64,000 bases of DNA from Anaerolineae bacterium (GTDB lineage: Bacteria > Chloroflexota > Anaerolineae > UBA4142 > SHND01), in the NCBI GenBank assembly GCA_020851635.1, contig JADZCJ010000140.1:186001-250000 (forward strand). Reading direction: 5' to 3'. Positions 16,516 to 63,892 of this stretch are shown here, piece by piece. Each line of letters opens with the position of its first letter. Within the stretch, counting starts at the first letter, position 1. Both the position numbers and the translations under genes were made by a program. A model generated the notes under the pieces. It was not told the origin of the DNA. It did no database searches and saw nothing but the letters and a program-made list of their open reading frames with translations.

Positions 16516-16965
16516 ATGAATCCCATGCTATTCAAACGTCTTGCCTCTTTTTTGCTACTGGCGAGTCTTTTTGCGCCCACGCTCATGATGACTTCGTGCG
16601 CATCCCAGCCCACCCAGCATGAGGTGCATCTGGCACCCGTGTCCATGCTGCCCGCAGAAATGCAGAGCGCCCCGGAAAGCGTGCGCACCGCGTACCAATT
16701 TGCGGTAGCGAATCCCGAACCACTCAAGAACGTGCCATGCTATTGCGGTTGCGGCGCGGTGGGTCACAACAGCAACTACGATTGCTATATTCAGGACGCG
16801 CCAAACAACGGCAAGATCATTTTCGACGAGCACGCGCTTGGCTGCAGTATTTGTGTGGATATTACGCAGGACGTGCTGCGCATGTCGCGGGATGGGCGCG
16901 CCCCGCCGGATATCCGCGCAGAGATCGTGAATACGTACAGTCGGTTTGGACCGTCGAACCAGTGA
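16516..16965 (+). CDS. PCYCGC-motif lipoprotein (Cys form)
   Basis: A 149-residue exported protein with signal peptide and a Cys in a lipobox-like position (MTSCASQ, about residue 27). The core is a PCYCGCG motif (residues 74-80) followed by DCYI and, later, LGCSICVDI with a CxxC pair. This matches the PCYCGC-motif family of unknown function, likely metal- or heme-related and on the outer face of the membrane. It starts a five-gene cluster with CuA proteins. A paralogue at 62809-63273 has UGA in place of the first Cys of the CxxC pair, so this gene provides the Cys-form comparison. Confidence 0.88.
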   Translation: MNPMLFKRLASFLLLASLFAPTLMMTSCASQPTQHEVHLAPVSMLPAEMQSAPESVRTAYQFAVANPEPLKNVPCYCGCGAVGHNSNYDCYIQDAPNNGKIIFDEHALGCSICVDITQDVLRMSRDGRAPPDIRAEIVNTYSRFGPSNQ

Positions 16966-19828: not shown

Positions 19829-20311
19829 ATGACCAAAAAATCACAGAGCAAGTCCAATCATCATCCGGTGCGGCGCAAGCCGATTCCGGCTGCCTGGATG
19901 CTGCTCGGCGGACTCGCGCTTGGCGCAATCGCGGTTCTGGCACTGGTGTGGATCACTTTGACGCCGAATCGCGGCGATGGCGGTCCGCCGCAGCTGCAGG
20001 TCAGTACCGAGCGTTTGGATCTGGGCAAACAGATTCTTGGAAAAACAGTGCGTGCGAGTTTTGAGGTGAGCAACAAGGGTACGGGTGCGCTCACTCTCAC
20101 CGTCCCGCAGCTTGCAACTGTGCTGGAAGGGTGCTGACCATCCCGAATTATCGTCGGTCAGACGATTCTAGGGCCCGGAGAAAGAACGACAATTTCCACA
20201 GATTTCATGATGCACGAAGGCATGGAGGGACCCCATCTCTTTGAGATCCCGCTTACGACGAATGATCCGGCACAGCCGCTAAAGAAATTGCTCATCGCGT
20301 CGGTTTGGTAA
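19829..20311 (+). CDS. DUF1573-like membrane-anchored protein, predicted selenoprotein (Sec103)
   Basis: The frame from ATG 19829 (AAGGAGGAG upstream) runs to TAA at 20309-20311 with one in-frame TGA at codon 103. Before it: basic start, one helix (about 22-43), and an Ig-like DUF1573-type domain (LDLGKQILGKTVRASFEVSN). After it the same frame continues for 57 codons with family-like sequence (IIVGQTILGPGERTTIS, MMHEGMEGPHLFEIPLTTNDP). The context is EGC-UGA-P; from memory, homologues have GCCPP, so UGA replaces the second Cys. Starting 18 nt after the UGA is a GGTCA loop on a 6-bp stem, as in E. coli fdhF. If UGA were a stop the domain would lose its last third. Redox function beside CuA proteins is inferred. 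Confidence 0.75.
20138..20168 (+). promoter_or_regulatory. Predicted bacterial SECIS element (gene at 19829)
   Basis: Stem ATCGTC (20150-20155) / GACGAT (20161-20166) with 5-nt loop GGTCA (20156-20160). Exactly 18 nt separate the UGA and the GGU of the loop, the same distance and loop start as in the E. coli fdhF element. GA/TC can extend the stem past a 3-nt bulge. Confidence 0.7.
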
Positions 20312-61872: not shown

Positions 61873-62757
61873 TTATTCAAAAGTTGAAAAACGAATAGTG
61901 TCGAGAATAACAAGGGCGACGGCGACCGCCAAACGGTAAAAGACAAACACATCCATTGAATTGCGCTGCAAGTAATTCATCAAGAAACGAATGGCAAGCC
62001 ACCCCGTAACTGCCGCCGCCGCAAACCCTACCGGGAACAGCAACAACCCGTCCGTGGTCAAACTGCCTGCCTGAAATTCTTGAAAGACATCCCAGCCGCT
62101 CTTGAGACTTGCGCCGGCAATCAACGGCGCGCTCAACAGAAATGAAAACTTGGCCGCGTCCGCGCGTTTCAACCCGAGAAACAATCCTGCCGTCAAGGTT
62201 GCGCCCGAACGCGAAACCCCGGGGAAAATGGCAGCCGCTTGGGCAAGTCCGATGAGGAGAGCGTCGAGCCATTTCAACTGTTGCGTTGTGCGAACGTGCA
62301 TTGCGAGATGGTCTGCGACATACAGTAGCGCGCCAAAAAAAGCAATGAGACCTGCCATCAAGAGCACGGCGCCGGACGATAATGCCTCGTTAGGAGCATG
62401 AAATAGTTCCTCCACGCGGCTTTCCAGGGACGCGCCCACTATGAATCCGGGGATGCTGCCCAGGACAAGCAACCACACGAGCCTGCGATTTGTGTCGTTG
62501 CCGATCTTGCGTTCGGCAATGCTTGCCACGCCCGCCCGAAATAAATCGATCCATTGCGTTCTGAAAAACCACAAAACTGCGACGAGGGTGCCGAGGTGCA
62601 ATGCCACATCAAACGGCAAACTCTCCAACACCGGATCATTCCATCCCAGGAGCCAGGGTACCAGAATTAAATGGGCAGAACTTGAGATTGGAAGAAATTC
62701 AGTCAGTCCTTGCAGGATACCCAGCGCGATGGCTTGAAAGATGAGCGTCAAGTCCAT
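61873..62757 (-). CDS. uppP: Undecaprenyl-diphosphatase
   Basis: A 294-residue multi-helix membrane phosphatase that recycles undecaprenyl diphosphate for peptidoglycan and other polymer synthesis. The UppP/BacA signatures are clear: LQGLTEFLPISSSAHLILVPWLLG (about 15-38) and PGVSRSGATLTAGLFLGL (about 178-195). It lies 51 bp after the PCYCGC selenoprotein candidate on the same strand. Confidence 0.93.
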   Translation of the reverse strand: MDLTLIFQAIALGILQGLTEFLPISSSAHLILVPWLLGWNDPVLESLPFDVALHLGTLVAVLWFFRTQWIDLFRAGVASIAERKIGNDTNRRLVWLLVLGSIPGFIVGASLESRVEELFHAPNEALSSGAVLLMAGLIAFFGALLYVADHLAMHVRTTQQLKWLDALLIGLAQAAAIFPGVSRSGATLTAGLFLGLKRADAAKFSFLLSAPLIAGASLKSGWDVFQEFQAGSLTTDGLLLFPVGFAAAAVTGWLAIRFLMNYLQRNSMDVFVFYRLAVAVALVILDTIRFSTFE

Positions 62758-62808: not shown

Positions 62809-63273
62809 CTATGGGGTCACGGTTTCTGTATTCGTTGGCTCTCCGAAACGGCTATAGTAGCCGTCAATGTAAGCGCGAATCTCGGCCAGAGACTTGCCCT
62901 CTTGCAACATTCGCATCGTGTCACGCACGATATCTACACAGATGCTTCAGCCCAATCCCATCTCGTCCCATTCCACCGTCCCATCGGGATTCACCTCTCG
63001 GACAAAACAATCTTTGACACTCTTGTGTGGCGCCTCACCGCTGTGACCGGCACCACAGCCGCAATAACACGGAATTTTTTGGAGCGTCTCTTGATTAGCG
63101 AGCGCAAACTGATACGCTTCGCGCACGTTCACAGGTGCGTTTTGCATTGCGACTGGCAAAGCAGACACCAGCGCAAGTTTTAACTTGTTCGGCGCTGTGC
63201 CTCCTCCGCACCCACCGAGCCAGGGCACCAGCGCGAGGAAGAGCAAGACGAATGCTGTCACTTGTTTCGTCAT
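62809..63273 (-). CDS. PCYCGC-motif lipoprotein, predicted selenoprotein (Sec109)
   Basis: The frame from ATG 63273 (AAGGAG upstream) runs to TAG at 62811-62809 with one in-frame TGA at codon 109. Before it: signal peptide with lipobox (LGGCGG), then PCYCGCG (68-74). After it the frame continues 45 codons without a stop (SICVDIVRDTMRM ... YYSRFGE). The paralogue at 16516 reads LGCSICVDI at this place; here it is LG-UGA-SICVDI, so UGA replaces the first Cys of a CxxC pair, giving UxxC. A hairpin with loop CGTGA begins its loop 21 nt after the UGA. Both sides of the UGA match the paralogue, so premature termination is unlikely. Confidence 0.78.
62915..62931 (-). promoter_or_regulatory. Predicted SECIS element (PCYCGC gene)
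   Basis: Minus strand: 6-bp stem ATCGTG/CACGAT (62931-62926 and 62920-62915) with 5-nt loop CGTGA; 21 nt lie between the UGA and the loop. The stem differs from that of the 19829 gene by one base pair. Confidence 0.65.
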
Positions 63274-63304: not shown

Positions 63305-63892
63305 CTATTGGTTACCTTCCTCAACCGGATAGCCCGCCTCGCGCCACGCGCGAAAACCCCCGCGAATCGCTTTCACATCGCTGTACCCGTTGTCCAACAA
63401 GACGCGCGCCGCACGGGCGCTTGATTCTTCAGCCGGTCAGGTACAATAGGTAAGAATCTCGGCTTGACGCGGCAAGGTTACATCGCCCGCCTCGATTTGT
63501 GCCAGGGGCAAAGAAACGGCATTCGCGATATGTCCTGCGGTATAATCGCCTTGTCCGCGGACATCAACGAAAACAGCATTCTTGACATCCCAACTCGTTT
63601 TGGCCTCAACGACCGATAGGCGCGGCACCTCGGGATAGGGGATTCCTTCGGCATCATGCACGTCCGGGACGCTGGCGGTGCCGGTAGAACTTGGTCGCAA
63701 TGCGCTAATAAGCAAAAAAGCAGCGACCGCGAGAACCAGCGCCCCGACGACCCATATCCAGACGGGAAAACGCGTGAGCCCACGCTCGACAGTCCGCTTG
63801 ACCGGAGTCCCGCACTTGGTGCAAAAGCGCTCTTCTGCGCGCAGCTTGTTCCCACAATTTGTACAATGAGAGAGTACGGCTGTTCTTGACAT
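63305..63892 (-). CDS. Zinc ribbon-membrane-rhodanese protein, predicted selenoprotein (Sec152)
   Basis: The frame from ATG 63892 (AAAGGA upstream) runs to TAG at 63307-63305 with one in-frame TGA at codon 152. Domains: zinc ribbon (CTNCGNKL ... RFCTKCG, about 10-28), a helix (about 45-67) and a rhodanese domain (about 88-190). At the active-site loop it reads YCT-UGA-PAEESSARAA; from memory this rhodanese group has YCTCP, so UGA replaces the catalytic-loop Cys, giving CTU. The frame then continues with the usual VLLDNGYSDVKAIRGGFRAWREAGYPVE. A hairpin with loop CGTGC starts 21 nt after the UGA. It lies 31 bp before the PCYCGC selenoprotein candidate. Confidence 0.78.
63406..63420 (-). promoter_or_regulatory. 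Predicted SECIS element (rhodanese gene)
   Basis: Minus strand: 5-bp stem GCGCC/GGCGC (63420-63416 and 63410-63406) with loop CGTGC, nearly the same loop and exactly the same UGA-to-loop distance (21 nt) as in the neighbouring PCYCGC gene. Confidence 0.6.

Follow-up and report, generated by a model that had tools for sequence, protein, structure and literature searches.

We identified, on the minus strand of a 64,000-nucleotide stretch of Anaerolineae bacterium DNA (contig JADZCJ010000140.1, positions 186,001 to 250,000; hereafter the window), a gene that is very probably the selenocysteine (Sec) form of the PF13798 lipoprotein family, which is the best explanation of the data as a whole. In the proposed mechanism, SelB would bind a hairpin in the mRNA and deliver Sec at the single in-frame UGA, giving the sequence GUSIC and hence a UxxC motif. 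The protein would be lipid-anchored outside the membrane, and the UxxC pair, together with the invariant PCYCGC and DC cysteines, would form a thiol/selenol redox centre or a soft-metal site. The features on which this reading rests are as follows.

63273..62809, minus strand: lipoprotein gene of the PCYCGC family, interrupted by a single in-frame UGA and assigned by its PF13798 match
63208..63210, minus strand: predicted lipid-anchor Cys22 of the lipobox (LGGC), conserved in at least 90% of the sequences, the lipobox being assigned by eye
63055..63072, minus strand: PCYCGC motif, codons 68-73, with an invariant CxCxC (Cys69, Cys71, and Cys73 invariant in 40 sequences)
62949-62947, minus strand: UGA codon 109, predicted Sec of GLG-U-SIC-VDI, facing a Cys in the paralogue and shared by 24 homologues at this position
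62914..62932, minus strand: SECIS-like hairpin, stem UAUCGUG/CACGAUG (first pair U.G) and 5-nt loop CGUGA, supported by covariation in 25 sequences
16516..16965, plus strand: Cys paralogue (CSIC) of the PF13798 family, whose own stop codon is an ordinary UGA

The gene, whose strand the original prediction had left unstated, starts with ATG at 63273 and ends with TAG at 62811-62809, and with the UGA read as a residue it encodes 154 residues in a frame that is otherwise undamaged (MTKQVTAF...LGGC...IPCYCGCG...KDCFVREV...GLG-U-SICVDIVRDTMRM...YYSRFGEPTNTETVTP). Standard gene calling would take the UGA as the end and report a truncated protein of 108 residues, counted from the ATG. The product scores 108.6 bits against the PF13798 profile, whose gathering score is 25, and contains PCYCGCG, which places it in the family. 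It had been proposed that the UGA stands opposite the first Cys of the paralogue's CSIC and that the flanking sequences align on both sides; BLASTP bears this out, with 61/131 identities (47%, E 3e-42) that lie on either side of the UGA and with codon 109 aligned to that Cys. A search of the whole genome returned three family members, namely this gene with one TGA and two paralogues with none.

A search of 396 genomes, sampled from the class to which the host belongs, gave matches in 89; many of the top-scoring ones contain a single TGA. The UGA occupies the first position of the CxxC in 25 distinct sequences from 22 genomes, including our own; in other words, 24 homologues in 21 other genomes carry it at exactly the codon-109 site. 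In 25 further distinct homologues the codon is TGC or TGT; we selected these Cys forms ourselves, so that 25:25 is no measure of how common either form is. Neither TAA nor TAG occurs at this codon among the homologues read. Fifteen alignment columns are invariant, including the three Cys of PCYCGC, Cys89, the Sec/Cys site, and Cys112. With 25 distinct genes in 22 genomes, the Sec form of PF13798 is spread widely through one class. The nearest relative is a congener, the one locus returned by a contig search with the single PCYCGC protein as the query; its independent assembly has the same UGA, at 87% identity in the class-wide search and 92% in the protein alignment, which makes a base-call error very unlikely.

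The sequence beyond the UGA evolves as translated protein. Against the two nearest homologues, dN was 0.029 with dS 0.27, and 0.133 with dS 1.22, in an NG86-type count based on few nonsynonymous changes (3 and 12.5); with dN/dS of about 0.1 in both comparisons, purifying selection acts on this stretch. Cys112, Asp114, Asp118, Gly126, and Gly144 are invariant, and the second half is kept in frame in the UGA forms. These observations led us to reject a true stop at codon 109, with a 108-residue PCYCGC fragment as the product and the remainder decayed or silent; this reading is very improbable, even though the host genome does use UGA as a normal terminator, as in the Cys paralogue. Still less probable is a decaying paralogue in which the UGA came from a nonsense mutation or a sequencing error. 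The genome does hold two intact Cys paralogues, and a single substitution turns TGC or TGT into TGA, but the same UGA recurs in the congener's independent assembly and in 23 further homologues, selection continues past it, and the frame shows no other damage; we rejected a pseudogene on these grounds. In a 50-row tree, our gene falls in a clade whose six members are all UGA forms (support 98/87). The Sec label changes three times on the best tree and 2-4 times in bootstraps, compared with a shuffled mean of 17.

The hairpin has six Watson-Crick pairs (AUCGUG/CACGAU) plus one U.G pair. The original prediction described a 6-bp stem with a 5-nt loop, 21 nt after the UGA: the pairs and the loop size stand, and 21 nt is the distance to the loop, but the stem already begins at 15 nt. 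The element lies just 3' of the UGA and its loop, CGUGA, has a G in the first two positions, as is the criterion for a SECIS. We aligned the 25 UGA forms with the UGA in columns 1-3 and the stem in columns 18-24 with 30-36, and found 97.7% of the cells paired, with compensatory changes at 3/7 pairs, while sliding the stem partner abolishes the pairing. In our gene and its two nearest relatives the codons read ATC GTG CGT GAC ACG ATG, and in most others ATC ACG CGT GAC GTG ATG; Thr and Val are thus exchanged between the hairpin codons while the stem is preserved. The loop is CG[U/G]GA in all rows but the most distant one. Since the folding energy is unremarkable (z -0.36 and 0.64), the SECIS assignment rests on conservation instead. 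As a control within the window, seven of seven pairs (G.U allowed) occur at the same offset after 4 of 2126 TGA triplets. The 25 Cys forms retain 4-7 of the 7 stem pairs, with all seven in 4/25, because the conserved protein motif tends toward self-complementary codons, and stem pairing is therefore a weak discriminator between Sec and Cys forms. The best separator is Arg at the loop codon, present in 24/25 UGA forms against 0/25 Cys forms, which suggests that the RNA element dictates a residue.

The absence of Sec machinery had been named as one finding that would speak against Sec. We found the full set in the host genome (5.8 Mb, 97.7% complete, 3.2% contamination): tRNA-Sec with anticodon UCA (69.5 bits, over the cut-off), SelA (593.9 bits), SelB (348.7 bits), and SelD. 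The SelD gene, at G000:C107:51778-52704 (L051), has an in-frame TGA of its own, which makes this selenophosphate synthetase a predicted selenoprotein too. SelA scores over the cut-off in 70/79 genomes of the sample, which leaves no contrast for linking the Sec form to SelA; it was not found in two genomes with UGA forms, G283 and G334, which are incomplete (70% and 90%). Decoding of the UGA as Trp or another ordinary amino acid, by a code change or a suppressor tRNA, is hardly credible and was rejected: an in-frame UGA alone does not identify the residue, but UGA terminates other genes here, the in-frame UGAs face Cys in homologues, and tRNA-Sec, selA, selB, and selD are all present. The machinery, the 24 UGA homologues, the covarying hairpin, and the purifying selection after the UGA together support the proposed Cys-to-Sec exchange at the UxxC, and on this evidence Sec is very probably inserted at codon 109. 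Sec use would thus be confirmed in a protein family without an assigned function.

On the minus strand, the gene order is P1B heavy-metal ATPase, zinc-ribbon/TM/rhodanese, PCYCGC gene, UppP, DUF3105, and DUF305, and the neighbours that matter for the argument are listed here.

L114 4021-6417, just outside the window: P1B heavy-metal ATPase, directly upstream of the rhodanese gene
63892..63305, minus strand: zinc ribbon, TM, and rhodanese (PF00581) gene with an in-frame UGA (YCT-U-PAEESS), the second predicted selenoprotein
63439-63437, minus strand: UGA of the rhodanese gene, predicted Sec (CxU), followed by a hairpin GCGCC/GGCGC whose loop, CGUGC, lies 21 nt after the UGA
61873..62757, minus strand: undecaprenyl-diphosphatase (BacA/UppP), the downstream gene (PF02673, 256 bits)

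The rhodanese gene ends 31 nt before the PCYCGC start. Its homologues from ten other genomes were read with the UGA at Y[C/U]T-U-P, and the hairpin loop that follows is usually CGUGC. Two of these homologues, L104 (G331) and L105 (G251), have two in-frame UGAs and read YUTUP, a UxU instead of the CxU elsewhere. The linkage between the rhodanese and PCYCGC genes is variable: they are adjacent here, about 2.6 kb apart in G110, and on separate contigs in several genomes. In relatives from the gene's own clade (L055, L056, L057), PCYCGC genes lie near P1B ATPases. At most other loci, for Sec and Cys forms alike, PCYCGC stands beside a COX2-like cupredoxin, an Fer4_5 membrane protein, and a cupredoxin-cytochrome c protein (28/39 loci, counted for a single-linkage cluster that merges several families, with Pfam assignments made on one locus). 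In G334, the gene that immediately precedes the UGA-form PCYCGC gene (L064 4478-4996, minus strand) clusters with the family by BLAST and may be a diverged tandem relative. These neighbourhoods suggest extracytoplasmic proteins that handle thiophilic metals or transfer electrons.

The AlphaFold2 model of the PCYCGC protein, built with 40 window and locus sequences, has a pLDDT of 88.4 and a pTM of 0.77. Against the PDB, Foldseek returned no match at E 0.001, and the best VIA-align hit (Z 2.7) was to unrelated mitoribosomal proteins. By sequence, the best PDB match of the profile was CcmH (2kw0, E 0.014), aligned just past the Sec site with the CxxC not on the CxxC, and CcmH was not among the fold matches of either program; the CcmH and saposin profile matches (E 0.014-0.07) were set aside as too weak. 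Because no solved fold matched, we infer the function from motif and context only: the protein is likely an outer-surface lipoprotein for thiol/selenol redox or metal handling, and we give a redox or metal role of the Sec form about even chances. It would act beside the Sec rhodanese and the P1B ATPase in the handling of sulfane sulfur or of a thiophilic metal such as copper. An alternative that competes solely with this functional half of our explanation is that the protein binds or delivers metal, for instance as a chaperone that supplies copper to CuA-type cupredoxins, and does not catalyse thiol redox reactions. The cupredoxin and Fer4_5 neighbours at the 28 family loci favor it, and the CxCxC and UxxC motifs would suit a soft metal. 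However, our PCYCGC gene has no cupredoxin operon, and Sec is commoner at redox sites than at static metal sites; we regard this alternative as a serious possibility that falls somewhat short of even. With metal ATPases, CuA-like cupredoxins, and another Sec protein linked to it, the Sec form has a function that can be tested.

A window-wide scan for UGAs that interrupt long open frames and precede a SECIS-like hairpin gave seven candidates, three of which have homologue support (UGAs at 62949, 63439, and 20135). The third belongs to the operon of the Cys PCYCGC paralogue.

19829-20308, plus strand: gene for a DUF1573-like protein, its in-frame UGA lying at 20135-20137 (LEGC-U-PSRIIVG), supported by homologues and a covarying hairpin

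This protein is widespread in the class, and most class-wide matches to it contain one TGA; in the ten distinct sequences read, the UGA falls at the same codon, where one paralogue has TGC, and the hairpin covaries with a loop that begins GGU. A 2026 review records DUF1573 with a UGC motif, not EGC-U-P (PMC13188914). The protein is weakly related to OS_HP2 (18.7 bits, cut-off 100) and to DUF1573, whose Pfam cut-off it also misses, and may represent a less well described or undescribed selenoprotein family; as a lead it is probably more novel than the PCYCGC finding. We suggest, tentatively and as the less probable case, that the PCYCGC UxxC protein, the CxU rhodanese, and the EGC-U-P protein could belong to one selenium-dependent pathway for the maturation or protection of cell-surface centres that hold copper (CuA-type) or other thiophilic metals.

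The original prediction implied that Sec is new to the PCYCGC family, but such proteins are already tabulated. The 2026 review lists a "CYCXC family protein (hypothetical protein OS_HP4)" of PF13798 with one Sec in a UxxC (PMC13188914), crediting the family to a study of the Olavius deltaproteobacterial symbiont; OS_HP4 with UxxC is also tabulated in PMC9312934, and the NCBIfam equivalog NF041379 (OS_HP4_CYCXC) is described as a "(seleno)protein". Our protein answers to the review's definition, PF13798 with UxxC, as UGA-SIC is a UxxC. It scores 56.8 bits (E 1.8e-15) against NF041379, whose curated cut-off is 90, and is thus homologous to the equivalog but outside it as drawn. Since the protein passes the PF13798 cut-off and misses that of NF041379, we class it as a divergent Sec form within PF13798 and place it outside the equivalog.

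Compared with OS_HP4/CYCXC, the PCYCGC gene shares the Pfam family and the one Sec in a UxxC, but differs in its Chloroflexota host and in its score below the 90-bit cut-off. The aligned family has a single conserved CxxC, and the OS_HP4 Sec site, as given in the review table, is therefore taken to match that of our gene. In the case of the rhodanese, "form 3" with CxU is recorded as a selenoprotein (PMC13188914), and NF041203 (rhodanese-related (seleno)protein, form 3), the nearest known family, has the same CxU arrangement, YC-T-U, as the upstream gene. The latter reaches 78.9 bits against NF041203, below the cut-off of 115, and has an N-terminal zinc ribbon and a TM segment. The PCYCGC lipoproteins of Bacilli (PF13798), such as AOT13_14730, share the lipobox Cys, the PCYCGC motif, and further conserved Cys with our protein, but they are described with conserved cysteines and not with Sec (PMC13068155). 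Seen against these systems, the PCYCGC gene is a well-supported further example of a known selenoprotein family, standing beside a second such gene, and not a new kind.
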